Source of the DNA: Melanopsichium pennsylvanicum
Taxonomy: Eukaryota > Basidiomycota > Ustilaginomycetes > Ustilaginales
Assembly: GCA_900208305.1 (NCBI GenBank)
Contig: OAPG01000011.1
Location: 186,001 to 250,000, forward strand
Direction of reading: 5' to 3'
Length of the DNA: 64,000 nt
Shown here: positions 1 through 60,272 of the stretch, one piece after another
Layout of the letters: each line of letters opens with the position of its first letter
Position numbering within the stretch: the first letter of the stretch is position 1
Notes under the pieces: model-generated
The model's input: only the letters and a program-made list of their open reading frames with translations
The model's database searches: none
What the model was told of the DNA's origin: nothing
Translations under genes and position numbers: made by a program

Positions 1-2441
1 CCTCATTCATTTCGCCTTTTCATATCGTGTCTTCTCGGTTTTTAGCAGGAAAAACAGCTCAACATCAGCGGAAAGGCAGCAAAGTTCATCGTCTCATGGA
101 GCTCAGTTACATTGGAGCATCGGAGCTTGAAGGCTGGATGGACCGCCATTTCAACTTCAAGCTTGTTTCGTGATCCTTGATGTCTACCCAATCGCTTCTA
201 TCCGTTCAGGCCGAATTGTTTTTGTGACGCCTTCGTGTCGATTTGTTACCGCATCCTGTACCGGATTTGCGACCGCCATGATCGATCTAGGGCGGCGCCG
301 GTTCAGGAAGACAAGAATCACGCTTGCAAGATGGTGATCTCGGTGGAAAAGGATCAGGATGTAGCCCTCGTGCGTATTTTTAGACTCTTCGCATCTGTTC
401 AGAGATTGGCCGTCAGAGCATTGCTGTGCTGAAGCCTTAAAACCTGTCAGCACAGAAGGGTGGCAAAAATGCACAGACGGAAACGTGGCGGCCTTGACCG
501 CCGGCACGAATTCAATCCTTTTTCCAAACTCCGCCCGAATCTGAGGGTTTGATAATCGGTCAATGCCACTGCTGTCGTCTTGCTACCCTGTTCAACGATA
601 CTGTAGAGAGCAATTTAAGATAAAGGCCCTTTGTGCTCACACAATTTGTCGCATGATTGTTGGGTACAGTTGGATGGAAGAGAAGGTTGATTCACGAGGG
701 TCTCAGCCGTTATCAGTTCACGCGAAAGGGCTGCAGCAGTACACTTGGGACGTTCGCCATCGAATCTCACAGCGAGTCTTGATATTGTCTCGAGTGGGTC
801 CGGGGTGAGTTTGTTGGACGACACTGACCAAAAATTAGGATCCAAGGCTGTGCGAAGGCCATTTCAGAGTCAGTGTTGAGTATCCCTTGCGGAGCAGACC
901 CAGCCTATCACTTATCGTGCTTTCCCACCACACGCTGTCTATCGCTTGTTGTCGAAAGTTTACAAGTGACCAAGCAAGTCTGGCTATCGCTTCACAGAAC
1001 CAATGCGAAGGGCTGATAATCTGAAGAGTTGACTGACAATAAAGGAATAAAAGGAGGCAAAAGGCCAGCTAAGAATCAGCGCTGTCAGAATTTTCTTGCT
1101 CCGCTTTGGTACACCGCTCGCCGTTTTGACCGTCGGAAAACCCTCCTCCGAACGTCAATCCTCCTCCCTCCCACCCTGAACCGCACCCTTGTCGAGGTGA
1201 CCAGCCCATGCAAACAGCTTCGCTTCTCAACTTGTCCAATCAGAGCGAGGGCTTTTAACCCCACAAGACTCTAGATAACGCTGTTCGAGTCGCTGGTTTG
1301 TATTGGCTGGTTGCTGGTGTGACGTTAACCGAATCCCCGCCTTTCTACCGCCGCTGGCATAGGGGTTGCCCTTCGTGCAGCTTTGTCCCTTGCGATCTGA
1401 CCTATCTTTGCCTTCCGCTTGTTCCCGCCGGTTGGTTCAGCCAGCATGAGCATCATGCTTTGAACTATTCGACGGCCGATGACATGCTATACGATCGTCA
1501 AGCCGATGTTCTTTGCTTGAGTAGCATGCCTTTTGGATACCGACTTTAACTCGATCTTGCTGTGTGAGAGGTGTACACGCTCAATTCGCGTGGGGTGTGC
1601 GTGGGCTCTTCTGAGGCTGACTGGATCGCATGTGTCCTTGACAATTAGGCGTCTTGTCGTAGGGAGAGCGGTCCGAAGCGAGGCAGGTTCGAAGGCAGAA
1701 GAGCTATACCATCGCAAGACTGTAAACGACAATGGGCCTCGGATCATCGTTTCGGCACCTAGCCAGCTGCCAGTTCCAGCACGGCCTTCCATCAATGCAT
1801 CTTTTTCCGACACCGAAATGGGCTTACTTCTCAAGCTCGGTGCAACGTATTGCACATGCTTGTTCCTTTCCCTTTTCGCCGCTCGCGTGTGTGCACCCCG
1901 CTGCTTCGCTTGCATCACTCGAGCTCATGTTGAGCCTAGATGTGCCGTGGTGCATTGCAGCAGTAGGCCTTCCTTATCATTGCTTCTCGTGCAAATGCAT
2001 TTCGCTATCTCGCGGTGACAATCTACACGCACCTTCACTCTGTTCCTGACAATTGCGAGAAGCTGTTATTATGTTATGACAAGCAATGCAGCTGCAGAAG
2101 CTGCGCCTCGTGGTATCAACCAGTCCCGAACTATGTATCCCGCGCTGTAAGGTTCGCTGAAGGGCACGAGAATAGTTGTTCGACCAATGGGACTGAGAGG
2201 AACGAATCGAATATATACAAGACATTGGCCTCGCCCCCCGTCTCGAATCTATGTCCCCTCCTCCAGCCCTTTCCACCTTCTCTTCTCTATCTGCTCTTCT
2301 GCCATCTTGCGGGGTGCTGCAAGAGCCCAGGCCTCCTTCGAAAGAAAGCGAATTTTCACCGCTCAGGGTGCGCCAACTTTTTTTTTGCCTCCCTCTCATT
2401 CCATTTTCTAACAGAGAGGCGTGTCCTCAAAGAGAATTACC
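1..2441. other. Gene-free left flank and transporter upstream region
   Basis: I see no gene in this stretch. Its open frames are short, overlap each other on both strands and resemble no protein family I know. It holds one TACTGTA heptamer at 599-605. Positions 2225-2405 are pyrimidine-rich, as expected for the leader of the transporter gene that follows, and a CTAACAG sequence at 2408-2414 could be the 3' end of a leader intron. A gene ending left of the window cannot be excluded for the first few hundred bases. Confidence 0.6.
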
Positions 2442-4862
2442 ATGGATCCTATCGACGTCAAGCCACAGTCGCCTGACTCGGAAACCAGCTCCGACAAGCT
2501 CAAGAATGAGTCTACTGAAAAGGATGGAGTTGAGATCACAAATATCCCCTACGTCTTCAAGAGTGATCGCGCTGATGTCGAGTTCGGTGGCAAGTCGCCC
2601 GACAACGAGGACGGTCACATCGTCCAGAACGCCGCCGATATCGTGACTCGAGTGATTTCGCTCGAGGATGATCCCTCGCTTAATCCCTGGACTTTCCGCA
2701 TGTGGTTTTTGGGCCTTGGCCTCGCCATCTTTGGTTCGGTTCTTCAAGAAATCTTCTACTTCAAGCCTCAGGTTATCTATGTCTCCCTCGTTTTCTTGAC
2801 TGTTCTTGCATACGCCCTCGGCGAAGTCATGTCGGCCATCATTCCAAGAAAGGGTCTTATCGGCCGCTGGCTCAACCCACACCCCTTCAACCTGAAGGAA
2901 CACGCTGCTATCACTTTAATGGCATCGGCTGGTACCCAGTCAGCTCTCGCCACCGAAGCGCTTGCTGCCCAACAGCTCTTCTACGGCGGATATCCTTCCA
3001 AGGCTGCCGGTATCTTTCTGGTACTTTCTTCGCAGCTTATCGGTTACACTGTCGCAGGTCTCCTTCGAAACGTGCTTGTGCGTCCAGTCAAGCTCTTGTG
3101 GCCCGTCAACCTGCCGCTCACGTCGCTCCTCGAAACTTTCCACGGCAGCAAGGCTCCCGACGCGAAACAGATTGTCAAGAAGCGCATGAAGATTTTCTGG
3201 GTCATCGCCTGCATCATCTTTGTGTGGGAAATCTTTCCCGAGTACATTTTCACCGTACTTGAGGGAGTTTCCGTCTTTTGCCTTGCTCGTCAAGACAGTA
3301 TGGTTTTCACTAACCTCTTTGGAGGTGCATCCGGTAACGAAGGTCTTGGCTTCCTTTCGATCTGCTTCGATTGGCAGTACATTGCTGGTCTCGGTTCCCC
3401 GCTGTGGCTTCCTCTGGAAACCATGGTCAACAATCTGGTCGGTTACCTCGGCTGCATCATCCTCTTCATGGGTATGTACTACGGCAACATCTTCCGTGCT
3501 CAGGACTTCCCGTTCCTGTCTCAGGAGCTTTTCGACACCACCTCGAACGGAACGAATGCTTTCATCTACAATCAGACTGCCATCATGACCCCCGAGTTCA
3601 TTATCGACGAAAAAGCTCTCCACGCGCAGGGTCTGCCGTGGATTACCGCCACATATCTCGCATACCTTATCACCACCAATCTTGGTCTCACTGCGTGCTT
3701 CACTCACATGCTCCTCTGGAACTACGACGACATCAAGGCTGGCTGGGAGTGGGCTTCCCCGAGTAATATTAAGAAAATCTTTGCCGACCCTCAATGGTAC
3801 AAGTTCTGGCGCTCCTCGACAACTGAGGAGGAGGCGGCATGGAGAGAAGAGATGCTCAACGATCCCAAGTGCGACCCTCATTACCAACTTATGATGCGAA
3901 ATGGTTACAAGGAGACTCCTCTTTGGTGGTGGGCTGCCTTGCTCGTCGCCTCTTGGGCCATCGGTCTCGCCTGCCTCTATGTCATGAAGGCTACCCTTCC
4001 CTGGTGGGGCTTTATCCTGAGCACTCTCTTTACGTTTGTGTTCACGCTCTTCTTTGGCGCTCAATACGGTATCACTGGCTTCGGCTTTAATATTCAGCCA
4101 ATTTGTCAGATGCTTGCTGGCTACCTTTTCCCAGGTCGTCCCCTCGCCAATCTCTACTTCACCTGCTATACCTACAACGCCACTTCAATGGGTCAAGTTC
4201 TTGCTCGCGACCTAAAGCTAGCGCAGTACGTCCACCTAACTCCGCTTTGCACTTTCGCCGTCCAGGTTATTGGATGCCTCGTTGGAGCCCTCATGAACTA
4301 CATCATGATGCTTGACATCGTGCAGAATCAAGCGGACATTCTCAAGTCAGTTCAGGGCACCAACATTTGGTCTGGTCAGAACATCCAGCAGTTCAATACC
4401 CTTGCTATTGCATGGTCGATCGCCAAGGACATGTTTTCTGTTGGTGCCAAGTACCAATGGGTGACTTTGAGCTTTGTTCTCGGTTTTGGCGTCCCCCTTC
4501 CCATGTACATCGGAAACAAGATTTGGCCTCACCGAGCCTGGAGCTACTTTAACTTCTCCATCATTGCATGGTACATGGGATGGCTATTTGTCGGCATCAA
4601 TGCTTCTATTACGATGTACTTTGTCATTGGCTTCTTCGCTCAGTTCTATCTCCGCAAGTACCGCCCTACCTTCTTCAACAAGTACAACTATATCGTTTCA
4701 GCGGCTCTCGATGGTGGCACGCAGACGTTAGTGTTCATACTCACCTTTGCCGTCTTTGGTGGAAGCGGAAAAGCGCGCCCTTTCCCCACATGGGCGGGTA
4801 ATCCTTCGTCTTCCGAGCACAACCTTGACTACTGTATGGTTTCACCTATAGTCGTCGAGTAA
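2442..4862 (+). CDS. OPT-family oligopeptide transporter
   Basis: This encodes an 806-residue polytopic membrane protein of the oligopeptide transporter (OPT) family, proton-coupled importers of small peptides, glutathione or metal chelates at the plasma membrane. The N-terminal 70 residues are hydrophilic and acidic. The family signature around residue 75 (EDDPSLNPWTFRMW) is followed by many hydrophobic segments to the C-terminus, and residues 145-154 (NPHPFNLKEH) match the conserved NPxPFNxKEH motif. Length is normal for the family. I chose the ATG at 2442 because it has a strong context (ACCATGG) and no in-frame ATG lies just upstream. The gene is uninterrupted. It converges with MAF1, 965 bp away. 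The substrate cannot be read from the sequence; peptide, glutathione and siderophore transporters all occur in this family. Confidence 0.95.
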   Translation: MDPIDVKPQSPDSETSSDKLKNESTEKDGVEITNIPYVFKSDRADVEFGGKSPDNEDGHIVQNAADIVTRVISLEDDPSLNPWTFRMWFLGLGLAIFGSVLQEIFYFKPQVIYVSLVFLTVLAYALGEVMSAIIPRKGLIGRWLNPHPFNLKEHAAITLMASAGTQSALATEALAAQQLFYGGYPSKAAGIFLVLSSQLIGYTVAGLLRNVLVRPVKLLWPVNLPLTSLLETFHGSKAPDAKQIVKKRMKIFWVIACIIFVWEIFPEYIFTVLEGVSVFCLARQDSMVFTNLFGGASGNEGLGFLSICFDWQYIAGLGSPLWLPLETMVNNLVGYLGCIILFMGMYYGNIFRAQDFPFLSQELFDTTSNGTNAFIYNQTAIMTPEFIIDEKALHAQGLPWITATYLAYLITTNLGLTACFTHMLLWNYDDIKAGWEWASPSNIKKIFADPQWYKFWRSSTTEEEAAWREEMLNDPKCDPHYQLMMRNGYKETPLWWWAALLVASWAIGLACLYVMKATLPWWGFILSTLFTFVFTLFFGAQYGITGFGFNIQPICQMLAGYLFPGRPLANLYFTCYTYNATSMGQVLARDLKLAQYVHLTPLCTFAVQVIGCLVGALMNYIMMLDIVQNQADILKSVQGTNIWSGQNIQQFNTLAIAWSIAKDMFSVGAKYQWVTLSFVLGFGVPLPMYIGNKIWPHRAWSYFNFSIIAWYMGWLFVGINASITMYFVIGFFAQFYLRKYRPTFFNKYNYIVSAALDGGTQTLVFILTFAVFGGSGKARPFPTWAGNPSSSEHNLDYCMVSPIVVE

Positions 4863-7440: not shown

Positions 7441-10102
7441 CTTGAAGGAGTGCAGGTGTGCACTATTCGATTCGGGAGAGGGGGGCAAGGGTGAGAGGCG
7501 CAAACCAGAGAAAAGCGAACGATAGAACGAGTCAAGCAAATATCAAGCCATAGAGACCATGGTGTGGAACAAGGATCAAAAAAGTCAGCAATGGCTATTG
7601 CATTAGATTGACCGGGTTGTTTCCCAGCACGAGTGACGCTGGCTACATTCAGAGGGAGAGAAACATGCGATTCCCTCCTGCTACTGTGCAGCGATCCGAA
7701 TGCCTTTCTTACATGGCGTACAGGTGTGTGGTTGTATGAACCGATGTTGGGTCGACTAGTGCACGGCCAGAGAATGCAGGCGAGATCAATACGACAAAGC
7801 AGAACGAAGCTCGTGTGGACAAAGAGGGTCAAAATGAAAAGAGAAACGGTGTGCATACCTACGCCTAAACTCGGCAGGTTAGCTCTGGTAGGAATTTGAT
7901 TGAATGATCAATCGAGCGGTCCGGAGAGGAGAGGCCTGACGGGCACGTAGTCGTCGATGTGAGAATAAGTTTTGGGCTTGCGGGTGATCAACGGATTACG
8001 CTGTGCAAGTTGAACAGGTGTTTCGGGACGATGACCCTACGCGTGGATCGCGCAAGTCTGCCCAAAGGGTTATGATTGTGAGTAGTAGAATGGAGTTGAA
8101 ATCGCCGAACACGCCTGGATTGGGTGCCCGAGATGGAGTGAGATGGGACGGATCGCGTCAATCGCGAAGATCTCGTTGTGTATCAATCGTGTATGATGAA
8201 GACGATGATGGTGTAGAGGGGCAAGGGAGGAAGGGGGGAGGTATGGCCGTCGAGTCGATTCAGTTGAATCATGTCGAGATCGGCGTGGCTCTCTCGAAAT
8301 GCAAACAGCGGCAGCACATCAGCCGGTTGAGACAAGTCGCGGTAATTTAGTGGTGGGCAACCGCTGCTGGTTTTACACTCTCAACCGTATCGCATCGCAG
8401 CCCACGTTCGCAGGCCTGAATGGGGATCGCGGTATCTACTTTACAGTATTTTACCGTGTCTGAGCTGAATCCAGCAGTTCGGACGCCAAAACATACAGCT
8501 GCTGTGCCTGGTTCCAGTTTGCATGCATGCGTGAATGCGGACAGGGCGTGATACCCACAAACTTAAGCCACTACGACACAGTCAGACCCTTCGTTATCTG
8601 CCGAAAACTCGCTATGAAGCCGACACGAGTGGGCTGTTGGACCTGGTTTTGCTCACATTGAGCTTGGTCCATGTGACAGCTGCAGAGTAGCACTTTCGTC
8701 GAGGCTCGAATCCACAAGCAGGCCATGTGTTCCATAAATCTGATCCGTATCATGTCGCGACGCATTCGTCAAACCTATTCGCAAAGGAAAAGGAGCATGT
8801 AAGAACAAATTGAGACGCCTGAGCCATAGCAATCTAGCGTTTGTGCATCCGTCATCTCAGAGACGCCATTAATTGTGGGGCTATGGCCTGGCTAATTGAT
8901 CCGTAGATCATCTGTCCAGCCGTCGACGCTAAGCTTCAAGCTCAGAGTTGAGTGTGAATCAAGAGCCTTCATGTATCTCGAGCAGTCCACATATGGCAAT
9001 TGCGGAGGTGATCATAGGAAAGCACAAGACCCTACTCGACTGTGCTCTTGGGCCAATCAAGTTGCGTTTCATTGCACGGTGACTGTGACTGTGACTGTGA
9101 CTGTGACTGTGACTGTGACTGTGACTGTGACTGTGACTGTGACCGTACACAGAGCAGTCTAACCCGATAATCCATGCGTCAAAATCTTATCGTTTAGACT
9201 TAGAGGGATTTGATTTCTTTGAGAATGTCCCGATTGTTGAGATTTTGGGCGCTGACGATCGGCTGGTTTAGGGGTGGGAGAACTATCGTACGATATATAT
9301 AACTATGTCGGAAGAGCACTCGCGAAAACATTGCCTCTCTCAGGGATAGAAGTGCACTCAACTTCGGGGCAGCACAAGAGCGGACTATCAATCGTACAGT
9401 ATTTGGAAAACAAACACACCATCACTTGTTTGCACTCTCTGTCTGCTCTTGAGACACGAGACACAGGAAACCTGAAATAGGCGTGAAATGCACATGCTGT
9501 GTGTCAACTAACACCTCGTCATGAAAAAGCACCTTTGACAGAAAACGGAGAGCGGGAGGCGGGAGGCGGATGCGCGGCGCGTCTTTTTGAAAGCGCTGCT
9601 CAAGCCTTTTGCTTTTCTTTTCTTTTTTTTTTTTTGGCCTCCAAAGAAACACAAAAGGTGAGCTCTTAACGTGCAGGCTTTGCTGCCCAAGTGAGCAGCA
9701 GCACAATTTGGTGGAAAAACACACTAGCAGCGGCAGAACACTTAACTCTGGCTCAGTGGTGCACAGAGTGTTGGACCCATTTTTTGGTCACCCAACCACC
9801 ATTAAACCCTCTACGCCGACACGCCATTCCTCTGTGTCTCTGTCTCTGTCTCTCTCTCTTACCCCCCCATTCCCACACCTTTGACCCGTAGCGCTTTCAT
9901 CCATCCCTCGTACTCTCGTATCCTTTTGCCATCCATCATCCTATTTGGACAACAACCTCCACCATCTTTCTTTGTCGGTTCCTCCTTGGTCGCCCCCTCT
10001 TTCTTCTTATTGGCGCTTTCTTTACTACGCGTCTCGTGTCTCACAATTACCCACACTTTTGTCTTGTGTCAATCATCTCGTCCTTAGTCTCTGCTGCTCA
10101 AC
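7441..10102. other. Long divergent intergenic region
   Basis: This 2.7-kb stretch between the divergent MAF1 and Bqt4-like genes contains no gene I can support. It holds TACAGTA heptamers at 8442-8448 and 9395-9401, a pure hexanucleotide tandem array (9079-9138), a 13-T run at 9623-9635, ACGCGT sites at 8039-8044 and near 10027, and a pyrimidine-rich leader from about 9830 to the start codon at 10103. Confidence 0.6.
9079..9138. repeat. Tandem array (GTGACT)10
   Basis: Ten uninterrupted copies of the hexamer GTGACT are followed by one degenerate copy, GTGACC. The array lies about 1 kb upstream of the Bqt4-like start codon. The lack of mismatches suggests recent slippage or active length change. 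Confidence 0.97.
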
Positions 10103-12462: not shown

Positions 12463-12558
12463 TTAGATAAACCGACGATTTAATGATCAGATTGTTTCTG
12501 TAAATGACTTGATTTTGTTGTATTTTTCCGGGAGAGGGGGCTTGTGTATGACTTTGAT

Positions 12559-12903
12559 TTAATTACCTTTCTTTCCGTTAATAGCGAGCAATTCAACATC
12601 AAAGACCAAATCGGCATTGGGGGGAATTATTCCAGCTGCACCACGAGCTCCATAACCCTCCTGAGCAGGAATAATCAACTTTGCCCTCTCACCAAGGCTA
12701 AGTTGAGGAACACCCTGATCCCATCCTTGAATAACTCTTCCAACACCAATCTTGGTTTCGAAAGCACCACGTCCTGGTTTACGGGAGGAATCAAATTCTT
12801 TACCGTTCGCAGCGAGAGTACCAGTATAGTGCATGGTTACAGTATCACCGGGTTTGGGAAAATTCTCACCATCACCAGCGCTAATTCGTTCAATTTGAAC
12901 CAT
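12559..12903 (-). CDS. FPR1: FKBP12-type peptidyl-prolyl isomerase
   Basis: This encodes a 114-residue single-domain FKBP, a prolyl isomerase and the intracellular receptor for FK506 and rapamycin. The canonical fold is complete: HYTGTL (25-30), EFDSSRKPGRGAFETKIGVG (36-55), RVIQGWDQGV (56-65), GYGARG (83-88), IIPPNADLVFDVELL (92-106). The pocket positions equivalent to human Tyr26, Phe36, Asp37, Phe46, Val55, Ile56, Trp59, Tyr82 and Phe99 are all present; the His87 position is Ala. The ATG at 12903 gives the standard cytosolic start. The frame stays open upstream to another ATG at 12999 (next entry). The third positions are more AT-rich than in neighbouring genes. FKBP12 and the KDM3 gene lie on the same strand, with 806 bp between the KDM3 stop codon and this start codon. 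Confidence 0.97.
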   Translation of the reverse strand: MVQIERISAGDGENFPKPGDTVTMHYTGTLAANGKEFDSSRKPGRGAFETKIGVGRVIQGWDQGVPQLSLGERAKLIIPAQEGYGARGAAGIIPPNADLVFDVELLAINGKKGN

Positions 12904-12999: not shown

Positions 13000-13709
13000 G
13001 TTGTTGTTGAAATAGAAGTTGTGCGGTAAAGTAACCCAAAACCAACGGCTGGGCTTTAGGTGGCGAACGGACCAATCCCAGAAGTCTCCAAAACACACTA
13101 TCAAAAAAAGGCAAAGGTGGTCTCAGCATCAATAATGAATAGTAACATTTCTGGGGCGAAAGCCGCAAGACGGAGGAATTTCTATTAAACACAGTCGGCG
13201 GTCGTTCTGAACAGTCCCACGAAAAAGACTTGAAAATAGATGAAATTGAGGATCTGACCCAGTCCTGGCGCGATGCCACCGATATAATATAATGTGAATT
13301 ACAGTACAATACAGTGACGTAACACAGTTCTACCGAGGTTCAGATCGAGGCCGCAAGTCTTACGCATAGCCTCTACCGAACTCGATCACGATGGCTGCCC
13401 CGATCGCATGGATCGGGAGCATTTCCTGATGATCTGGATTTTCAATACCCCTTCCCAAAGCCACTGCAGCGTCGCTCTTCTACACGGAATGAAATGACAA
13501 CTCTGAAGATCATGAATCATCCATCCTCGAACATACCTTCTTTCGAACTAATTGTTGAGAGCCATTGTGTTGCTTGAGCCGTCAATACATAGACTATGAA
13601 TGATTTTTCGCTGCCGGGACCAAGCAAGGTCTGCGTTTGAAAGAGTGGTGTTGCTCGGTAGTTGATACTGATCAAGGTGCTATCAGAGCACGAATCATTG
13701 GTGGTGTGA
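13000..13709. other. Spacer between FKBP12 and the KDM3 gene
   Basis: The two genes are on the minus strand, so this holds the KDM3 3' end and the FKBP12 promoter and leader. TACAGTA occurs at 13300-13306. No gene is seen. Confidence 0.55.
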
Positions 13710-16379: not shown

Positions 16380-16691
16380 GTTTGCCAGCACTACAGTACG
16401 TTGCTCAAGCCCAGCTGAAGCTTCAAAGATAAAACTTGAGAGAGTTTAATTCCGAATGAAATGTGGCGAGCCTTGGCGAGCGAGGATTGGTATGATATGA
16501 ATAGCGAATGAGCAGAGACTTGACTTGAAAGAGTGGGTTCAGAAACGCAGAGATGAATCAATGGCGGTGACGCATTGGGCGAAATCGAAAGAGATAGGAG
16601 AGAGCGATCGAAAGAGAGTGAAATGACAAAGTCGATAAATTTTGGGAGGAGAGGATATCTGATTTGGCTTGAAAGTTGAACCTTTTAGACG

Positions 16692-16779
16692 TACTGTATC
16701 TGGCGAGAAGAGAGGAAGGAAGAAGCATTTGGTCTAAGCTGAGTCGATTTGGCATACACGTGCGCGTGTATGTACTGTA
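16692..16779. promoter_or_regulatory. Pair of TACTGTA heptamers, 81 bp apart
   Basis: TACTGTA occurs at 16692-16698 and 16773-16779, about 310-400 bp upstream of the KDM3 start codon. It is one of four pairs in the window with this spacing. A regulatory role is inferred from recurrence only. Confidence 0.35.
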
Positions 16780-17172: not shown

Positions 17173-17262
17173 TACAGTAAATTTCAGTGCAAATAGAGCC
17201 GTCCTGCACCAAAAATCACACACAACCGTCAGCCAAAGTGGAGGCATATTCATTATACTGTA
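17173..17262. promoter_or_regulatory. TACAGTA/TACTGTA pair, 83 bp apart
   Basis: Heptamers at 17173-17179 and 17256-17262 lie 140-230 bp upstream of the 5-alpha-reductase-like start codon, a plausible promoter position. The function is inferred from recurrence in the window. Confidence 0.35.
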
Positions 17263-22762: not shown

Positions 22763-23533
22763 CTACAAGTCAAAGTCGCTATCTTCATCATCCTGAACCG
22801 TCTTCTTCCTTGTGAACTGCATGATCAAAACAAAAGACAAAGCGATTCGGTCAATTCCAGCATGCACTGATGCCATGGTTGTTGATCTGAACCGCGATTG
22901 TGTGACCAACTTACAGTAATCTTTCCCGCGCCTTGTTCGGCATTTGCTTGATCCACCTGATCCAACAATCCGATCAGTTGATCTTCGGTGATTCTGCCTC
23001 GAATCTGGCCCGATTGAGCCATGCGGATCAAGAGGTCGGTGATTTGTCTCGCTTTTGCGGGTTTGACCAGGCCGATTCTTGAAACTATTGTGATCGTGTT
23101 GCCGAATCATTCACATTTAATGAGATGCATACGCTGTCAGCTTTCTTTCCAATAACATTAAACCGATTTGTAACGGAAGGGAGAGACGGATAAAGTAGAG
23201 GTACCTACGACGTTCCCTTGCCTCGGCGTCGAGAATGCGACTGAGCATCTGACGTTTCATCTCTTCTTGTTGTGCGGCTTGGTCTTCCTGATTCTTTCCA
23301 CCTTGACCTCCTGCCGCTCCATCCGGTGCTCCACCAAAGCCTGGAGATCCGTATCAAAGTTGACCGTCAGTACAAATGCAAAATTGAAGCAAAGTCGTTC
23401 GTCTGGTTTGGAGAAAGGATGGTCACTCACCACCAGCGCCAGCACCACTGGGACCAGAACCAGCAGCACCTCCACCACTCTTGAGTTGAGCCATACGGGC
23501 TGCTCGAATAGCTTGCAATTCGTCGTTCTCCAT
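22763..23533 (-). CDS. PDCD5: PDCD5/TFAR19-family protein (four exons)
   Basis: Exons 23431-23533, 23209-23340, 22915-23084 and 22763-22816 join to 459 nt and encode 152 residues. The family, conserved from archaea to animals, binds nucleic acid or the chaperonin CCT; its fungal role is not well defined. The N-terminus MENDELQAIRAARMAQLK, the helical core QQEEMKRQMLSRILDAEARE, RLSRIGLVKPAKARQI, then QIRGRITEDQLIGLL, and the acidic tail TRKKTVQDDEDSDFDL all match in order. Splice sites were chosen for frame and for this match. For intron 2 the pair GTC|GTAGGT and AATAG|TTTC restores the family's RLS sequence, better than the alternative GTACCT donor. The Gly/Ala-rich insertion after residue 18 is a local elaboration. 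Intron lengths are 90, 124 and 98 nt. Confidence 0.93.
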
Positions 23534-26500
23534 CGTATGCTGAGTGATGGATCGAGTGTTGTGTTTGTGTATGTGTGTGGTATGGTGTCGAAACAGCTGC
23601 AAAATAATGGTAGAGAAGCCCTCAAATTTGGGGTTCTGGCTCTCATGCCAATTGTTGCGCCAGCCCCCGAATTCCGAAATAAAATTGGTTCCTGTGTTCT
23701 CCACACCTTTACCGTATTTATTTGGCTTCTGCACGAATCAAGTTGTTCGTGAGCGCATGAGACCATCACCACCTGACTACTGTCGTTCGGGTGGACAATG
23801 CTGCAATCTTAGACCGGAACTGAGGCTGATGGAATCACTTATAGTATGGCTATAGAAGGCATAATCCCTCAATTGAGAGGCCGTTCAAGAAGACAAACGA
23901 TTCAGTGAATGTGCTGTCTTCGGCATGTCCTTCCATCGATGCTCTCTTCCTCTTCTTAGCTTTCATGACGTTCGGAACCGCATCCGATCTCACTGGGCGT
24001 CGTCGAGCTCGTTACTGTAATAGTTTTTTTTTTCGTGCTCCACCAGTCATTCCCTTGTGCTTTTGACGTCGAAAGTACGTACATAAATCTACTGTATGTC
24101 TCAGTTGCGCTTGTTGGCCCGAACTAATTTGAGCTGCTCAAGCCTGGCACGTATTGAGAGGTTTGCACTGAAATTCTCATCGCTGGGCATTCATGTGTTT
24201 GTGCAGCATGGTCCTGTAATCCCATTTCGGCCACTTGGAGCAGTCACAAAGGCAAGAAAAGGAGGTTCCTCTGCCACCTTTCGGGCCGCTGCAAGCGCTC
24301 AAAGCATTATGACTGCATCTTGATCGCAGATTCATGGCAGCACGAGGAAAGTGACTTGGTAAAGATGATTCCTCAGAAGATTGTCTGGCTCCATCATATC
24401 ACTACACGCAAGCACCTGAGACAGTGACAAAGGCGACAGAATCTCACGACGCAATCAAGGAGGCCGATATGTTTGTCCATGCCGCGCTGCGAAAATCGCA
24501 CACATGTGACAACTCGCTCGATCGGTTCCTTGACAATCTCTTACATTCGCCGATTTGCTTTTCAATGCTGCTGTAGCAACACCTGCAATCCGAGCAATCG
24601 TTTATAGCAATGAGGTGGTAACAATGAAAACCAATGCAGATGGTTCCTGCGCACTGCCGATGCAGGTTTCCGAGTACAGTGATTTTTACCGTAAGTCACA
24701 ATACGTAGTCGGCGTTCGAGCGCGATTGGTCATTAGTGAGCTGGATCTTTTTGCTCATTATAGAGCTTGATTCTATTATTGCTCGTTGTTGAGCTTGATC
24801 TTGTCGGTGTAATTGACAGTTACACGGCTTGGCATCCAGTGCCAAATCGCAGTGGTGGTATGTAGCAAAGGAACTCCGTCTTGACTGGTTCAGCTCGAAA
24901 GAAGTCACAGACCTCGGAAAGGCCGGACCGGAAAGGAAATGCTGAAGAGCCTCCCTGCCGATCGCCGCGCTATCACACTTCTCGTTCTCGCTGCAAAAGC
25001 ATTGAAGAAGCTCAGTCGCCGCATAACGGAAAGCGTGCTGTCTTAGAAGGAACATACACGATATAGGTAGAGAATCGGAACCTTCCCGATCGGGCTATGA
25101 AACCAACTTCTCTTTAGGGGCTGCAGTTGTGCATGTAGTGATTTTTATTTATTTATTTTTTTTTCCCCAAAAGCCGCACACGTCTTCAGCCTTCAACTGA
25201 GACATCTCGATCCATAAAAGATTGAAAATGGTGCAGCGTGGGCCGTTTTGTGTGAAACAAGAAACAAACTTGTGCTACATTCTTCACAGTACGGCGAATT
25301 CTCAGCATACCGACCAATAAAACTAGAGCCTGCAACTTTCGGCTCTGCTCCGTTTTTCTTGTCGCTTAACTTTGGTTGTTCGCAGCTCCCTGAGAGAAAG
25401 ATGCTGGGTCAGTAACGAGCGTGAGATGGTGTAAATGAACCGAATTTTGCCAATCTCATGACAGCGTCGAGAAGGGGCTAACTTAAGAAGTGAGATTGGA
25501 GCATGCAAGGGGGGCGCATAAGCTTCCGAAGTCGAAGAAAAGCCCCAAGTAGTCAAAATGGCTCTATGTGATTGAGGAATCTCTGCAGTGTCTGATGCCC
25601 TGCCACATGACTTTTTATTTTAAATCTTGAATCGAATTATTAAAATCTCAGTAAAAGGGCGAGACTGTTTCCAGAGCCATCTGCAAGTCCCAACTAATAA
25701 AGTTTTCAAGGGTCAAGAGATCTCATGCAAATGGCGAGGCAAACCTCGCTTCCTGTCATGAATAAAAGGAGTACAAAGCCTGACTCAATCTCTCACATCG
25801 GCGATAACCGAGATCGATCGAGAGAGAAGACGACGGTTTTTCTCGAATGTGCTGTGCAGGCACTTCTTCTCTGGAAAACTTGAGAATTGTGCTGCTCCCT
25901 TGGTCTTTCTTTGGGAGACCGTCCAAGAAGCAAAAACAAGCAGGGATTGGGACAGAGTGAGATTTCATCCCTAACCACCACAATGAAAGGGGAACAAAGC
26001 GGAAGTGAAGATACTGTAAATTTACATCGCACCGTAGAGAACGAGTTAGGGGGTCGAGCGTACATGTACATGCACAACGCTTCACCGCTTTAGACAAGAA
26101 ACACGACGCAGGTAAGCGACGCTACACGAACAGTACGCTGAGCTCTGACTGGTATTGTCATGCTTCTGTTCCACGCTTTGCTGTCTGGTGATCATCTCTC
26201 GGTGAGAATTTGGTCACGCTCCAAGCAAGCCCAACCTTGAGTGAGCTTTTTCTTCAGACGAGCCGAATATGAAATGATTTCATTTCCCACCTGTGATTAC
26301 ACACAGAATCTTCTGACAGATGCTCTTGCTTCTCGCCGAATGAGAACAATACAAGAGCGAAGAATGAAGGACGATCTGTCCAAGTCATGGAAGCGAGGGC
26401 CATGCTAGGGCCAAGTGCGCGAGATGAGTATGTTAATCAGAACGCCTTACTGTACTCCACGTCTCTCTTTCTCTCCCACGCAACCCGAATCATGGTCTCT

Positions 26501-27660
26501 GGGTCTAGGCAAGACCCTTGCTCCTTCCGACCTCAATTTCAGTTCTCCGCCAAGTTGTGTGCGTGTGAGAATTCGACGGTGGGGATGTACTGCTTAGCTG
26601 ACTTGAAGTGGCCTTTCAATCTGATCACGCAGCCGTCCCGTCTAAGCTGGCACCCATCCTTGGCGAGTTCTCAAAGCTGCATGTCAGCGCGTGCTGGTGA
26701 ACGAAATTATGCATCTTCTCAGTGTTGCGAGGTTCTTGCATCTCGCACCAAAAAAATCAAAAAAAAAGGATTTCTCGGCTTTCTGCCCCAAGCTGCCGGT
26801 GATTCCAACACTAAGACTCTGCATTACAGTATGTATGCCGCTTTGACCTGCAACAGAAGTGGTTAGGCGGTTGCGAAATTCCCCTCGCCTTGGTGTGGCT
26901 CGTCTGGCTCACTTTTCATGCTTCCTTACCACATCCTGGCTTGACTAGATGAGTTACTCAACTGTAGGCGAGGGCAACTGTCAAAACGTAAACGCTCCAA
27001 CTCCTACTCCTTTGTCATCGGCCCATCTGAGGGTGGGGGTCCCTGTCTGTGCTGCGCTTTGCTACGCTGTGCTTGCTCAAGCTGCCAAAGTGCAGCTGAT
27101 TGCTTGGTTCCGACCAAATTTGTGACTGTTGTCCTCTCTGTCCTTCCACTCTGTACAACAGCGTCGGTGACAAGTCTCTGCCCACTCTTCTTCCGACTGG
27201 CGCAACCACACTCAACGGCCACCACGCTTAACACAGTCAAGTCGAATCACTCTCCGCACCACGCTCTCCCATCTCCAATCTTGACTTTGCTCCGTCGTTT
27301 GGGCTTTCCCCTCTCTGTCATTCGTCTCGGTCCACATCGTGTTCCTTACCTCCTGCCGCTTGGGTCGTTTCTACCATCTTCATTATCGGCTCAACCTTAA
27401 ACTGCGTTTGCGTCTAGCCTTTTGCGAGGTCGCACGCGCCGAGCTCATATCATCCACCGCCTCATCTTGCAGTTAACAAGCTTCGACCAATGATATGCCT
27501 GCTCGCCGCTCAGCATTTGCTATCGTGAGCCTGCTGCTTTGACGAGCGAGGCTGCACCGGTTCACCTTCTTCCTTATCTACAACACGGTCAAAACGCATT
27601 CCGCTCAACTCTGAGATACCCCTTACCGTCGTCCGCCGATCGAGTAGCCAGCAGAGCTCA
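23534..27660. other. Gene-poor 4.1-kb region
   Basis: No gene is supported between the divergent PDCD5 and 1,580-residue genes. Five TACWGTA heptamers lie here (24013, 24090, 26012, 26448, 26825), and a TACCGTA at 24687-24693. T runs occur near 24023 and 25155. An ATG-initiated frame at 26387-26866 (159 codons) has no recognisable domain. From about 27000 the DNA is pyrimidine-rich, like a long leader, with upstream ATGs such as the one near 27489 that could act as uORFs. Confidence 0.55.
24013..24096. promoter_or_regulatory. Pair of TACTGTA heptamers, 77 bp apart
   Basis: TACTGTA occurs at 24013-24019 and 24090-24096, about 480-560 bp upstream of the PDCD5 start codon. A regulatory role is inferred from recurrence only. 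Confidence 0.35.
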
Positions 27661-32403: not shown

Positions 32404-32911
32404 CAAGGATAAGTGGTGAAGCTCACGATCAATGGAATGGAGTGGCATAACACGTGACTCTATACCTACAGTACATACACGCATACATGCGCGCGCTAAT
32501 GTTACTCGCAATCTTACAATCTTTTGAACACGTGCTGCTTTTTCGGGATAGCAGATACAGTATGACGATGGTGAATGTTTTACCCTTGGCCTTGGTGATT
32601 TGTGATTGCTTTGTGTACATGTTGAATAAAATCAGAAGCGTGACCGAAGAGATGGAGTGTCGAGGACCAGAGTGAAAACGGGGGATTTGAATGAGGCACT
32701 GGAAACTAGACGATGTTGGGGAGTTGTTTTACATCAGGAATGTCGAGGCTTGGGTAGACGATGATGATGAAGCTTGGGCGAGATGCCTTTTTTTTTTTAG
32801 GGAAGAAAGGGGTATATTATTGTGTAGCTTTTGTGTTGGCAGAAGTAGACCTTCTCTTGTTCTGATCTGATCCTGAAACCCATTTTTTGAATGATGCCTA
32901 GAGATTGGTGT
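32404..32911. other. Convergent intergenic region
   Basis: This holds the 3' ends of the disordered-protein gene and the AIM29-like gene. It contains two TACAGTA heptamers and a T run near 32791. No gene is seen. Confidence 0.6.
32467..32562. promoter_or_regulatory. Pair of TACAGTA heptamers, 89 bp apart
   Basis: TACAGTA occurs at 32467-32473 and 32556-32562, 60-160 bp past a stop codon and downstream of both convergent genes, so a promoter role is unlikely for this pair. The meaning is unknown. Confidence 0.3.
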
Positions 32912-34665: not shown

Positions 34666-35116
34666 TACTACACTCTTAGACCCTGAATACACTCTACCTT
34701 CAAGCACAGTGCGACAATGATCCAAGCGCGACCCCCTCGACACAAAATACATCATTTTAATGCTTCACTGTTCGAGTATTACAAAGTGTTTCCTATTGCT
34801 GCATGTGGGTCGATCATGATCTTGTGTCGTCGTTGGTGTAAAGTACACTAATGTACATTACTGTACGATACAGAGGCTAACCACATCTGACTGAACGCAT
34901 CCAAAAGGAGTGGAATTTTTTTGCTCGTCGAAACCCACACGCTTCGGTTCTTGAAACCAACAACCACATGGCCAACAGGCCTACAATATTTCCGAACCTC
35001 TCACACAACAGTCATCTTTGTACCTCTCAAGAAATAATCCATGCCTCAACCCATTCGAGTTCGAAAAAGTTCCAAAGTTGCGAGAGCAGTGCACGAAGCA
35101 AGCAAAGAACAGACAA

Positions 35117-38086: not shown

Positions 38087-39331
38087 CACCAGTCAGCAGC
38101 ATCGGTCGCTCCAACATGAAAGCATGGATAGCAGCTGTGTTGGCCTGTCGATGGTCTCATCCACTCAATCAATCACATATACAGTATATGATGCCTCAAA
38201 AGAACATGGCCTCGGTTACAGCCCATCCAAGCCATTCGCTCAATGCTGATGGGCTCAGACTGCCCCGGAATCACGTTTTTTCTTAAGAGCACACGCGCGC
38301 GATAAGCGATGCCAGGCCGGACCACTCCGATGAGGCCTGCTGCTCTGTTGCTGGAGGGTCCCTTGCTTTTCAGCGTCACAGTAACTTTTGCGGGACTACC
38401 GCCAGGTCAGTGCTGTCTACTTGGCCAAAGGGTGTGAATTGAGCCACATTATTTGAGTTCTAGGTCCGTAAGAGCAAAGGGATCGCTCGCTATATTCTGA
38501 CAAGCTTGAACTATTGCCAGCTTGCAAACATATGGCAAAGTTTCGCTGAAGATCAATCTTCGACACGTTGGCAGAGCTTAGCGAAGTCGAAAATAGGCAG
38601 CCTCCAAAAAGAGTAAAAAGAAGAAAAAGTTCCACCAAAATGTGCGCGTTCCGAAGCTTGCGCGTGTTCCGCTGAAAAGTAGGGTGTGATTGCGAATGCG
38701 TGGATACTACTGGATGGCACATGCAACGCAAAGAGGTGAAGACGCTATTACGAAGGCAGCAGCGCAGCACAGTCGAAGTGCATATCAAAACAGCCCAGCG
38801 CTGCAGCACCCACGCGCATCCGAACTCCAATATTTGGACGTCTCGGCAATTCCGTCTCTTTGGAAGCTCTCTTGCCCTTTTGCTGGTGTCAACCAATGCT
38901 TGTCCCTCAAACCATAACCTTGATGGCTTTCACCCAGACCTTTCACCAGATCGTATCGTGACGGCATTCCCGACCGATTCAGCCCGACTTGGGCTTAACA
39001 GCCAAATACAGCGTTGATAAGACTTGAACGTTTAAGTCACGCTGGTTGGATCTCAACCACCCATCCGACTCATCTACATTCTTCAACAGCACGATCAGAT
39101 TCAAGCTTCCGTTTTCATAACAATCACCCACACCACATCCAAGCACACGATTTAGAGCACTTTCCTTCCGCACCCTAAACATAGCGTTGCCTCGACCAAG
39201 ATCTGCGAAAATCTCAATCAGCTGCGCAATAATCGCACCCGTACGACCCTGAAAGTTTCCGTTCTCAAGCATTCAGCTGTCGATTGGCTCCGCCGCAACT
39301 CACCTTTTCCAATTCACACAACACCGCCCGT
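38087..39331. other. Spacer upstream of HPC2
   Basis: TACAGTA lies at 38180-38186, about 95 bp past the small gene's stop codon. The rest contains only short frames without family similarity. The last 200 bp are C/A-rich, as in a leader. Confidence 0.55.
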
Positions 39332-41647: not shown

Positions 41648-44240
41648 TCCGATTCAGCTGAGGATGTGGGAGCAAATCAAGCCACGATTGGAAGACATCA
41701 CGTTTTCACCAGCGCACCTGTCACGTCGGAGTGACCGACTGACCGTGTTCGAGAATTCGTTCCTCTGTTTACATCGATGACAGCCGAGACATGCATTCGC
41801 TCGATTCGATTACAGGGCCAGCCCGGTAGATGTGGAACTGGGCGAGGGCAGATCCACTCGGGAGACGGGATCAGGACATGCCTGGGGGATCGAATGTGCT
41901 CGAATCTGGATCTGAACAGGTAGTCTGGGTTGATTGCAGCGGCATTGCTGATCATGGTCACAAAACGAAAGGCTAGGGAGCCTTGGACAGGCCGGCAAGC
42001 AGGATGCCTCGACCTGGATCACTTTTCAAAGAGCTGAACTCCAAAAAGCCATGCGACGAATGGACATTCGGTGGCTGGTGGCTGCTGAGGAGGATCGCTG
42101 GTGCTTCCGCAGCATTGCGTGGGGACCCAACGAGCGCTTTCTGTCGCTGTCTCTGGGACGCAGAAAACCCCGTATAACTTTCCATATAGCGTCCTCGCCT
42201 AGTTCTTCAACTGCGCTGATGCGAACTGAAATACCTTTTAAAGGTACAGTTGCTGTGCTCTGTGTTCACAAATTACTGTGTGAACAGAGCTCCTCAAAGT
42301 GCGTGCCGAGTGGCAGGGGGGCTCTGAGTAGGCTGTCGGGCATTGCGAGAAAGCGCGGTGAGATCCTCGGGCTCACTTTCTATCTTTTCGAGGCGAGCTT
42401 TCAGCGAGCGTATCTGGTATAAATTTACTGTATTGACAGATCAAGTAAGGGAGAAGCGTACCCAGGAACAGAACCACACTGTTTGGCAGCTTTGTCGTAG
42501 ACGCATCACTAGAGGTGAAGCTGGTTTCAGAAGTCTGATTTCGGGAAAGAAAGGGTGGGGATTGACACGGATCTGGAATAGCTCAATTGGCACAGACCGG
42601 GAGGTTTTGCGGAAGTGCGATGCTTGGTCCTGACTGGACTTTTGAGAAGAAGGAAGACTTGGGTATGCTGATGATTGCTGTCAAAGTGCTCATTTACGAT
42701 ACAAGGTGAGGCTACTTGGAAAAGGGTCAACCTCAGACCGTTTGTAGCTCACATTCAAAAGTGCGACCTTGCTAGAGCATCTCGTCAGAGCACTGTACGG
42801 TCAGATGGGTGGAGCAAAGCAGCATTGTTTGTCCGAGTCGCTCAAGTTGGCTGCCGAGCCGTTTGCAGCTTTGCAGCGACGTGCTCTTACAACCCAGGCT
42901 CAACTCAAGCCTTTAAGTTAGTCATTACTGCGTGTTATATGAGCCGAATAGCTCGCCTCAGTTACACACCATGGCCTCAATCATTATTGCGATCTGGCAC
43001 TTTCAGAGTAGAAGTCAAAAGCAGTGCGGCAACAGCACACATGCATGATTTGTCGCCTTGCTGTACAAGACTCTTGTATACTGAAAGGTCAACTTACTTG
43101 GGACCGTGCACCACTGAAGAGAGCTCCAGCTAGGGAGAGAGTAATGATCGTGTTTCTATCGTGCGCAACTGGTTTGGGATCGGGATGTCCGTGCGCTGGC
43201 AGACCCTGAATGGCACCTTGTACCAAGAGAGAAAGGGCAAAAAGGAGAGATATGACGAAGACGGCTTGGCTTTGGTCAGCTACTCTCACAGCACAATGTA
43301 GCATTACCCCTCTCTGCATCGACTTGTTGTACCCTTTTTGGCACCCTGGGGCAAGTCGAGCAGACAACCGACAGCTGGTGGAGAGGGAGGCGTCAAGCCA
43401 CCCGGCTCTTTTTCCGAGTAAACCCTCAATCGAATCCCCCCTTCTTTTGCGTCAGAATTGCACCGGGTTGACTTTTTTATAGAGACTACGTAGCATAGCA
43501 GTCGTGCCAAATGCGGGGTTGATGCTGATCTCTTTTATCCTGCACAGCAGAAGCACAGCCAAAGGTCGATGTGGTTGAGAAAGGTGTTGCTTCCCTGACC
43601 TCCGCTTGAGAAAAGAGGTCTCAAGCAACCATACAACAAGTGCAAGCATATCAACTGTGAAACAAGAACGAGTCAAGACAGCGATTTCGCTTTGAGAGCC
43701 GGCCAATTGATCAAGCGGCATATCAGTCGACGTAAAAGGCGATTCAAAGTGTCGCTCAGCTCTGGCGAAGTACACACACAAACACACACTCACACAAATT
43801 GATGAGGTGACTTAGATGCGGACGGGAAATGTATGGATTGGGCAGGGCCTGAAACCTGAGAGGTCTTGAAAAATTAGCGTTCGGCATGGTCCGTGTGCTG
43901 GTCTGTGACCGTTTTGCCGAATTGCCTCATAAGTCGGATGAAATTTCCGCACCACATTGCGGTAGCCTTTGCATCAACTGACAAGAGCAACACGCTCGAG
44001 CCAGCTGCGTGCTGTGTCCTTCACTCTTTTTGACAGTTCCTCGAGCTTGCAAGCCATGTAGGACCATCCCTCAGACCGCAATCTTCAGCTTCAGCAAGAT
44101 TTGCAGGTGTGATCGTTTGATTGTCGTGTTCTCTGATAAACGGTAACAGGCAGATCGAGCGGGACTTGGGAATCGAACGTACAAGTATTAGTGGTGTGTC
44201 TCTCCAACTGGTTGTGTGGAGGCAGCCATACATGCAGTTA

Positions 44241-44764: not shown

Positions 44765-46210
44765 ATTGGTTGAGAGTGTCACACACTTTTTTGTGGAGGC
44801 ACAGGCCAAGTACCTCGGGACATACTCGTGTGCCAGTGTGTTCTGCTTGACTCTGCCTTATCTAGCGTCACAGTTGCCTTCTCGGCTAGATGGGCATCGG
44901 ATGCGCAGCTGTCCGCCGTGGTTGTTGTTGGCCATGGCTCGATCCGGTCGCTCCAGCCGTCCTGCCCGGTCACGCTCAGACTGAGGCATCCCCTTGTTCC
45001 TTGAGCAGCACTCCATGCTAAGGTTTTGGTGGTAAACGTACATCTCGAGATTGTCGTAGGAGAGAGCTTGATCCTACAAGTTTCGGGTCAGACGAGGACG
45101 AGAATATTAAAGGTCAAGAGCGACTCTTGGTACTTGCGCAGCCTCATGGCGCAATCTGAGAGGGACATGCGGGTAGGCTGAAAGCAAATGCACCGTGAAG
45201 TACTGTAAAGTTACGATGATGAGGTAGCTCCGTGCCTTCCTTTGGCGGAACGATCTTTCCGTCGGCCTTCTCCACCTCTAGTCTTGCTGCCCAGCACTGC
45301 GCATCGTCTTGACCCTCCTGTCTGACACAGTCACTGCATGCGCTCTGCGACTTGGGCTCGTTTTACGGCTTAGTGGAGACATGCACCTGACCCTCTCTGC
45401 CAAGTCTAGCTTTGCGGCTCGATGCGAAGGTACAGTACAGCTTCTTTCTGACACTACCAAACTCAGGAAGAATTTGACGGAGCTTTGATGCTATGCAAAA
45501 CAAGCTCTCATGAGTAGCTTGCTAGTGCGAAAACGGAGCTGGTTGAAGAGAGTCGAGGTCAAGCTCACGAGATGAGGCTGTTGTCACGGCAACTAGCTGG
45601 TGCAGCTTGATCTCTGTGCTGACATGACAACATACAACCACTCACAGATGTCGTCGGCTGCGTTCGAGAAAAGGAAGAGATATTAGAAGGCAACCCCGCA
45701 ATGCAATCGCTGTTGCAGAATTTAGAATTAGACGCCATCATCAAGTACTCTGCTGTCTCCCTTGAAATAATGAGTCCATCTTCATTTGAGGTAACCCAAG
45801 CATACAGTAATTAGCGCCGGTCATCTACTGAATTGCTTCGAAAGCCGTGGCTTGAGCGACACACCCAGGATTGCGAAAGCTCTGCATCAAAGGCATGCAA
45901 GTCACGTCAGTATGCTCCTGATGTCCTGTCGGGGCAACCGCTGAGATGAAATAGCAGGCAGACAGAGAATACCTCTTCAGGTCGATCAGAGCTGAATGCG
46001 TTTGTTGGGTAGGGCAGTCCCCCAGTAACCACCACCGTCTCGCCGAAGACCTCTGTCTTTCCTGCGGTTAAGCGACCCTCTGCGTCGAGACCACCAGTGT
46101 GGCCGGACTTTTGTTGAGTGTGCCCTCACCCTCGCCAAGCCACAGGTCTCTTTCGCTGTGTATTTTTGCCTGAAGCCTCACTCGGTGGAATCCCCGCACG
46201 GCACTAGCCG

Positions 46211-52464: not shown

Positions 52465-52833
52465 ATTCCCTCCTATTAAATATACACTCTTTCTCACGCC
52501 GGCAGTAGCGATGCCCGGTCGCGCCAGTCACTTATCCACCCTCTTGCTGCAGTACAGTATACCCTCAGATTCTTGAAGTCATCATCGCTCTCTCTGCATC
52601 ATTTCTGTTTCCCGATCCGAATTTGCATCTCAAAACTTATAGAAAACCCAAGCTGGCTCTTGCCCTTTCAAACTTTTTTTTTCTCCCAGCTTTGCTCTTC
52701 TTGACACATTTGCACGAGCACACGACGGTCAACGCACAATTGTCTTGAGCTGACCGATGAATGGCTGACATTGCATGCTCGTAGAGTGGTGTGATGAAAA
52801 TTCTTTTTAATTTTGGCAATTTTTTTTTTCCTC
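52465..52833. other. Convergent spacer between SPG1 and DSS1
   Basis: This holds both 3' ends. TACAGTA lies at 52553-52559, and T runs occur near 52674 and 52820. Confidence 0.55.
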
Positions 52834-59071: not shown

Positions 59072-60272
59072 GGTGAAGGATCGCGATGAAATGTATACAG
59101 ATGTAGCAAGAATGTGCGCTTGTCCGTGTGAGTCTTGAATGATGGACGATCGGTCGAAAAGATCTAGAAGGCTTTCGAGGTGGAGAGAGCGATACAAGCG
59201 GTCAAAGCTTCCAAGCTTGTATCACAGCAGCAAGTTTCGGAGCACAATTCAAGATGGTGAAAGTTGGTCGGAAAGGAAATCGTATTTGTGAGAATCAGTG
59301 TCGACAAGGCCGTGAAGTGGCGAAAGCTTGGCCTGGGAAGGCCTCATTTGATGGTGGTGCAAGGAAACGACGCTGGCTGGTGGGAGTGAGGGAGTCTCGA
59401 GGTCCATGCACAGCGGCCAAAGTCTGCCTTAAAAATACAGTAAAACCGTAAAACACATGGAACAAATTTCATCTTTTCCCAATCTTGAACTTTTTTTCGC
59501 ATGCAAAGCGCTTGCATGCTGCATCAATGTGGATTAAAGGGCTGTGTAAGTTGAGCTGCAATTGTACAACACACCCAGATCAACTAGTCCCTTGTTGGTG
59601 GACGTCTTGAATAGCTCCATGGTCATCTATGTGTAACGTCAATGTAAAGGAACAAGCAACGAAAACATAACGACGGACGACTTTTTTTGGAAGGAAGGGG
59701 GAAAATGGATGAGTGTTGATCTGAGCTTGGAACAGCGTTTGACACGAATGCCAAGACTCGAGAGAGACTGCATCGCCTCGCATGGAATTCGACGTCAGGT
59801 TTGTCTCGTTTGCAGCACTCTGCTGGCGTCGTGCCCGAACTGGTTCTTTTTCTGGAACGCATGTCACACTGTGTTGTAGGGTAAACTATCAAAAAAATAA
59901 TTAAAAAAAAATGCGAGACCAACACCTGTCAAAAAAGTCGTCATAGCAAATCGACCCGATCAAGTCGATCCTGATCCATCGCGATGCAGTACTGTAAATT
60001 AGTCGAGATCATGCTTCGCTTTGCTCCATATCTTGCTCTACTTCTGCCATTCACGATTCTCGAGCTCATTCTCCGCTGCGCAAAACATCACATTCGTTGT
60101 CTTGAGTCTTGTCTTTGATTGGCTTTCCCACTGAGCTCACTTACACTACAACACAATGTAGGTTCAAGATTGTATCCTTACGATTAGATTAAACACAAAC
60201 AAGCCATACTAAGGCATGGCGATACATAAGCCAACGTAAAACACACAGCAGTATCAATCCAAGCAAACTTTC
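59072..60272. other. LtrA-like upstream region and 3' spacer
   Basis: It contains TACAGTA at 59436-59442 (365 bp upstream of the LtrA-like start codon) and TACTGTA at 59990-59996 (about 280 bp past the next gene's stop codon), plus AT-rich runs near 59890-59910. No gene is seen. Confidence 0.55.

Follow-up and report, generated by a model that had tools for sequence, protein, structure and literature searches.

We analysed a 64-kb window of the smut fungus Melanopsichium pennsylvanicum (the whole stretch C11:186001-250000, from contig OAPG01000011.1 in a 61-contig assembly of 21,109,315 bp) for the heptamer TACWGTA, which is read as TACTGTA on one strand and TACAGTA on the other. By their domains, the genes in the window include an RNB gene (52834-56355), a JmjC gene (13710-16391), an HPC2/ubinuclein gene (39284-41647) and a small FKBP gene (12559-13104). 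The ubinuclein protein is an 82% match to that of Ustilago trichophora; the match in Sporisorium scitamineum is partial (81% over 67% of the query), and those in other named Ustilaginaceae are lower. TACWGTA occurs 28 times in the window, and none of 100 dinucleotide shuffles reached this number (mean 1.88, maximum 6). A sequence-only reading of the window had named 27 coordinates, all of which proved genuine on recount, and had overlooked a single site at 16392. The sites are as follows, with reference to the open reading frames (ORFs).

599..605, plus strand: TACTGTA, noncoding, 1.8 kb upstream of ORF 2421-4862
4830..4836, plus strand: TACTGTA, coding, within the end of ORF 2421-4862, probably chance
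8442..8448, plus strand: TACAGTA, in the divergent gap 7518-10092
9395..9401, plus strand: TACAGTA, in the divergent gap 7518-10092
12838..12844, plus strand: TACAGTA, coding, inside the small minus-strand FKBP ORF 12559-13104, probably chance
13300..13306, plus strand: TACAGTA, ~400 bp upstream of where the FKBP gene probably starts
16392..16398, plus strand: TACAGTA, adjoining the upstream end of the JmjC ORF 13710-16391 (ORF bound; putative start)
16692..16698, plus strand: TACTGTA, in the divergent gap 16392-17420
16773..16779, plus strand: TACTGTA, in the divergent gap 16392-17420
17173..17179, plus strand: TACAGTA, in the divergent gap 16392-17420
17256..17262, plus strand: TACTGTA, in a divergent gap, with the first ATG of ORF 17305-18459 ~40 bp downstream
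22912..22918, plus strand: TACAGTA, noncoding by segmentation, assigned to a putative splice site by the sequence-only reading
24013..24019, plus strand: TACTGTA, noncoding by segmentation
24090..24096, plus strand: TACTGTA, noncoding by segmentation
26012..26018, plus strand: TACTGTA, noncoding, 1.6 kb upstream of ORF 27661-32403
26448..26454, plus strand: TACTGTA, noncoding, 1.2 kb upstream of ORF 27661-32403
26825..26831, plus strand: TACAGTA, noncoding, 0.8 kb upstream of ORF 27661-32403
32467..32473, plus strand: TACAGTA, 64 bp downstream of ORF 27661-32403
32556..32562, plus strand: TACAGTA, ~150 bp downstream of ORF 27661-32403
34859..34865, plus strand: TACTGTA, where ORF 33841-34665 and the NMD3 gene converge across a 561-bp gap
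38180..38186, plus strand: TACAGTA, where the NMD3 and ubinuclein genes diverge across the gap 36884-39285
42426..42432, plus strand: TACTGTA, ~0.8 kb downstream of the ubinuclein ORF
45201..45207, plus strand: TACTGTA, noncoding by segmentation
45431..45437, plus strand: TACAGTA, noncoding by segmentation
45803..45809, plus strand: TACAGTA, noncoding by segmentation
52553..52559, plus strand: TACAGTA, where ORF 51790-52410 and the RNB-domain gene converge across a 444-bp gap
59436..59442, plus strand: TACAGTA, in the tandem gap 59222-60275, upstream of the minus-strand ORF 56834-59197
59990..59996, plus strand: TACTGTA, in the tandem gap 59222-60275, downstream of the minus-strand ORF 60273-63788

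Throughout the genome, TACWGTA occurs 5338 times (2739 TACTGTA and 2599 TACAGTA), as compared with 1246 and 1190 occurrences of the backward-read pattern used as a control, and the excess, scaled from the shuffle result of the window, amounts to ~4700 sites. The preference for W at the centre is strong, yet not absolute, as TACCGTA and TACGGTA combined occur 1475 times. The three copies with C or G centres that the earlier reading named in the window are in fact five (4065 and 23710 were overlooked), which is above chance, with 1.07 expected and 0/100 shuffles reaching 5.

Coding and noncoding DNA were compared in a non-random sample of 304 kb (~1.4% of the genome), consisting of the window, C1:200001-400000 and C4:300001-340000. 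The two classes were separated with a home-made three-periodic Markov/Viterbi segmentation, which overlooks small or spliced genes such as the FKBP gene at 12559-13104. While 74 of the 77 sample sites were labelled noncoding, at most 72 are truly so, since 4830 and 12838 were mislabelled and indeed lie within ORF 2421-4862 and the small minus-strand FKBP gene, respectively, where the sequence-only reading had placed them. The 74 noncoding copies compare with 8.4 expected from a trinucleotide model or 6.4 from a dinucleotide model, and TACWGTA ranks second among the noncoding 7-mers, after AAAAAAA and followed by dinucleotide repeats; it is the most over-represented noncoding 7-mer other than simple repeats. 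Coding DNA contains 3 copies versus 3.2-4.7 expected, which is the chance level, and therefore selection against TACWGTA in genes need not be invoked. Intergenic counts near expectation, the outcome by which the earlier reading proposed to judge itself, were not obtained, as the enrichment persists both genome-wide and in the sample. The density per kb of noncoding DNA is unequal across the blocks of the sample (0.89 in the window, 0.35 in C1 and 0.80 in C4) and is ~0.55 overall with a more sensitive segmentation.

We also compared the 250-bp flanks of 85 sites (the 77 sample sites and 8 further loci) by all-versus-all blastn, which returned the self-overlaps of neighbouring sites and, apart from these, six short matches of 17 or 26 bases. 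The flanks share no longer sequence, and each site is therefore a separate instance of a short word. A family of miniature inverted-repeat transposable elements or of other repeats as the carrier of TACWGTA was ruled out by the same comparison.

When the sites were aligned on their centres, a letter preference was observed to reach 4 bp outward on both sides, in the order not-G, A, T and T. The CAGTA side is the stronger, with A at +2 in 43/91 cases beyond CAGTA versus 25/91 beyond CTGTA (p 0.009). Genome-wide, AATTTACWGTA occurs 306 times per strand (612), versus 3 and 4 in the backward control, and the centre base is coupled to the side bearing AATT, being T in 72 and A in 28 among 100 matches listed of the 612 (p 1e-5). 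Overlapping words, TACWGTACWGTA, number 178, versus 4 in the backward control; among 50 listed, 18 are TACTGTACAGTA, 1 is TACAGTACTGTA and 31 have equal centres. A strong side requiring HATT explains both the 72:28 centre bias and the 18:1 ratio of TACTGTACAGTA to TACAGTACTGTA. Rules of this kind, with a strong and a weak side, are usual for protein sites. The spacing and centre tallies of listed genome-wide matches, here and below, are hand counts, and the listings of AATT matches, overlaps and pairs with 3-4 bp between them span C1 to C4 at most.

The sites are also spaced non-randomly. Pairs with 0-30 bp between the heptamers number 473 genome-wide, versus ~93 by random placement, a figure that presumes 45% noncoding DNA, and 6 in the backward control. 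With tandem arrays included, 125 pairs have 3-4 bp between them (10-11 bp from start to start), 77 have 12-15 bp and 46 have 16-19 bp; some 13 among 50 listed of the 3-4 bp pairs sit in such arrays. After removal of the arrays by hand, spacers of 12, 13, 14 and 15 bp number 5, 14, 8 and 4 among 50 listed of the 77, a listing that extends to C10, and within this set the start-to-start distance of 20-21 bp leads. Three copies within 81 bp gave 88 matches, in which tandem arrays are counted repeatedly, versus 0 in the backward control, and several of these triples sit in tandem arrays whose dissimilar units have only TACWGTA in common. Arrays of unrelated units bearing the heptamer were seen at C1:784899-785010 (15 bp) and C4:344794-344895 (10/11 bp), and further heptamer arrays lie at C5:71134-71200 (20 bp), C21:139658-139704 (5 bp) and C8:429272-429313 (7 bp).

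It is improbable that the sites as a whole derive from decayed microsatellites with a pentamer unit, (TACTG)n, and from other minisatellites in which TACWGTA occurs by chance. This origin would account for the arrays, among them (TACTG)n at C21:139658 and C7:266467, the 15-bp units at C1:784899 and the 10/11-bp units at C4:344794, as well as for a 5-bp phase of TA around the sites, but most sites are single, with 87 of 95 collected sites lacking a second copy within 45 bp. Moreover, T and A centres are mixed in 19 of the 50 overlaps listed, and single-unit slippage cannot give such mixing.

With respect to genes, the more sensitive segmentation gave densities of 0.73 sites per kb for divergent gaps, 0.42 for tandem gaps and 0.43 for convergent gaps; divergent gaps hold 39 sites in 53.3 kb, versus 33 in 77.5 kb for tandem and convergent gaps together (one-sided p 0.015). 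The common promoter words CCAAT, TATAAA, CCCCT, TGACGT and CACGTG lean no more strongly towards divergent gaps under an equal test, and this test therefore has little power here. Measured from start codons, 3 sites lie within 150 bp versus 9.1 expected, and 27 lie at 150-500 bp versus 19.4. Sites occur near the 5' and 3' ends of genes alike, as the sequence-only reading had stated, with 34859 and 52553 lying between convergent genes. When oriented by gene strand, the ratio of TACTGTA to TACAGTA is balanced, at 29:22 for sites 5' of genes and 12:10 for those 3' of them. Although TGTA forms part of the heptamer, these ratios make it highly improbable that the word acts in transcripts, either as a PUF-protein site (UGUA), the alternative raised from the sequence, or as a 3'-end processing signal, and they speak against an RNA element as the main cause. 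The presence of sites in divergent, tandem and convergent gaps, and the dense clusters represented by the 88 matches with their repeatedly counted arrays, would also suit a replication-origin or chromosome-structure element that is read by an initiator or architectural protein instead of a transcription factor. We regard this as rather unlikely, as three of the four dense clusters that were fetched have a likely start codon, as judged by eye, ~200-1000 bp downstream.

Our preferred explanation, to which we assign a probability of roughly one half, is that TACWGTA forms the core of the site of a putative sequence-specific, probably dimeric DNA-binding protein that would act on noncoding DNA across the genome, mainly, but not solely, in promoters. 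The full site would be close to AATTTAC-W-GTAAATT, in which the CAGTA end would serve as the strong side, with its preference for an outward H-A-T-T, and the CTGTA end as the weak side. Sites that start 10-11 bp apart would be favoured because this is one helical turn, as if two dimers cooperated on the same face of the DNA. A density of ~0.55 sites per kb suggests that the putative reader is a broadly acting factor, perhaps general regulatory, insulator-like or repressive, and not the switch of a single pathway. The earlier proposal of an inverted repeat read by a dimeric protein is thus retained insofar as a two-fold symmetric, sequence-specific DNA element fits best, but it had missed the existence of transposon footprints spelled TAC(A/T)GTA. 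If TACWGTA is a binding site, few DNA-binding proteins in this family of plant-pathogenic fungi with biotechnological uses would be as widely placed as its reader, for which the heptamer would be a ready bait.

Several results weigh against a protein-binding site. The lean towards promoters is weak: the four-bin test of distance to start codons gave p 0.067, gap classes did not differ significantly on the first segmentation (chi2 4.67, 3 df), and on that segmentation 43 of 90 gaps are occupied, versus 42.6 by random placement. Sites also lie in short convergent gaps (34859, 52553 and C1:347156). As for spacing, the complete genome-wide listing of the 16-19 bp class, with arrays removed by hand, contains 13, 1, 16 and 9 pairs with spacers of 16, 17, 18 and 19 bp, some of which consist of a shorter pair plus an overlapping copy. 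Start distances of 23 and 25 bp are thus common, and a pure helical rule is not fitted. TA dinucleotides are in excess at 5-bp intervals around the word, and this also holds for the isolated sites (87 of the 95 collected), with 12 at +10 versus 3.4 from the background of 0.039, and where the phased TA is lost, TG or CA stands in its place in 7 of 13 cases (hand count). A TA phase that decays to TG or CA is unexplained by a protein site and is expected from decaying chains of transposon footprints. Finally, TACWGTA matches a known transposon scar letter for letter.

A less likely explanation is that the heptamers are scars left by the excision of Tc1/mariner-type transposons whose ends read CAG, each amounting to a 5-bp insertion at a TA. 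Insertion duplicates the TA, and excision leaves three terminal bases between both TAs, yielding TACAGTA or TACTGTA; such a 5-bp scar shifts the frame within genes and is neutral between them. Between the CAG overhangs, pairing fails only at the central A-A mismatch, which is repaired to A or T. The restriction of the centre to W follows from this mismatch. The same footprint, TAC(A/T)GTA, is given for Sleeping Beauty in passages of two papers (PMC3432063, PMC4378557), to which the smut word is identical in all seven letters, in both centres and in the TA at both ends. Also consistent with scars are the scatter of sites over all kinds of gaps, convergent ones included, the 5-bp TA phase, and the number of overlapping chains, as 178 is of the same order as the 76-153 predicted from the rate of words per noncoding TA. 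The one-mutation neighbours of TACWGTA are likewise in excess (transitions 1.58x, transversions 1.30x), and the A/T-rich letters flanking each side of the word are similar to ANNTANNT, the target of Sleeping Beauty (PMC2756404).

A possible source for such scars resides in the genome. The DDE_3 family matches at 10 places, with internal stops in 7, and L035 (C22:13952-15602) is a decayed Tc1/mariner-like element with inverted repeats of ~60 bp. BLAST recovered 29 pieces of its relatives at ~14 places including the query, the long pieces being 77-93% identical, and pieces of the family lie on C16, C3, C5, C1, C2, C9 and C20. We read 12 ends, two belonging to L035 and the others coming singly from 10 fetched stretches, with left and right assigned from BLAST. 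At 9 of the 12, CAGTG or CGGTG comes immediately after the TA. The left ends carry CAG in 3/5, the others being TAG and CAC, and the right ends carry CAG in 3/7 and CGG in 4/7 (one CGG displaced by two bases). Six of the 12 ends thus start with TA followed by CAG, and such a TA-flanked family could therefore leave a TACWGTA scar.

However, the choice of the centre base in a scar should be a coin toss, yet the 72:28 ratio with AATT among the matches listed and the 18:1 ratio among the overlaps listed are not random. Right ends with CGG would yield C/G centres, which are far less common than W centres (1475 vs 5338); the elements are few for ~4700 excess sites; and one review, in contrast to the two research papers, prints the Sleeping Beauty footprint as TAG(T/A)CTA (PMC2874221). 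We place a protein-binding site before scars because the centre depends on the flanks, because CGG right ends would add C/G centres, because ~4700 scars from a handful of elements would be extreme, and because there are protein precedents for TACWGTA. If, on the less probable account, the sites are scars, the noncoding DNA of this smut would be a fossil record of near-traceless transposition, with thousands of 5-bp scars of CAG-ended Tc1/mariner elements and some sites hit repeatedly, leaving the 5-bp TA phase. The most abundant intergenic 'motif' would then be mutational and not regulatory, transposon footprints could fool motif discovery in such genomes, and past transposition could be counted in a new way where few elements remain.

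A second Tc1-like remnant, at 634-2332 of L033 (C3), has inverted repeats of ~88 bp that start with TA and then CACCTTTTTG. The words TACACTA/TAGTGTA are mildly enriched in the sample (17 vs 7.1 expected), which would fit the scar of an element whose ends read TA and then CACC, such as L033, but these words are also one letter away from TACWGTA.

The Sleeping Beauty footprint shares the letters of TACWGTA, and the smut genome has Tc1-like remnants whose ends read TA and then CAG, but the smut differs in having thousands of copies and few elements, a flank-dependent centre, an AATT context and pairs 10-11 bp apart. In the LexA SOS box of Escherichia coli, the half-sites are TACTG and CAGTA; this box is bacterial and has a longer, fixed spacing, unlike the smut pairs, which favour 3-4 bp between heptamers. 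In upstream regions of Caenorhabditis elegans, as described in part of PMC3575287, TACWGTA accompanies the R12-5/12-0 motif pair (20/42 pairs). It is the same palindromic word in upstream DNA, and the passage names no binder, but the setting is an animal one tied to a partner motif, whereas the smut word stands alone or is paired with itself. The zinc-finger protein PLZF/ZBTB16 is reported, in a passage of PMC3398472, to bind TACTGTAC, and it thus provides a protein that binds the TACWGTA word, although an animal one. Among open-licence articles in PubMed Central (PMC), the papers found to print both TACTGTA and TACAGTA as words concern Sleeping Beauty. Searches of these articles by letters or by topic found no report of TACWGTA as a motif in smuts or other fungi among the papers listed, four of which, one of them on a Ustilago maydis mitochondrial intron, contain the letters and were left unexamined. 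Scans of genome-contig and viral-contig collections for related DNA found nothing, and a self-comparison of the 304-kb sample for empty sites found no duplicated stretch containing the heptamer.

The next odd palindrome in the noncoding sample, TAACTTA/TAAGTTA, occurs 21 times versus 4.3 expected. As 18 of the 21 copies carry a C making CTAACTTA, which is branch-point-like, or GTAAGTTA, which is donor-like, they resemble intron signals, and the word was dropped as a second footprint family. In 15 of 20 measured cases, TAACTTA copies lie 150-1000 bp from a start edge, perhaps in introns of 5' untranslated regions. The words GACTGTGA, CACAGTCA and ACAGTCAC are ~4-fold enriched in noncoding sample DNA, and we take them to resemble the HomolD box of fission yeast. 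Lastly, the dense heptamer clusters L036 and L037 lie ~200-1000 bp upstream of ORFs that resemble, by eye, secreted glycosylphosphatidylinositol-anchored proteins.

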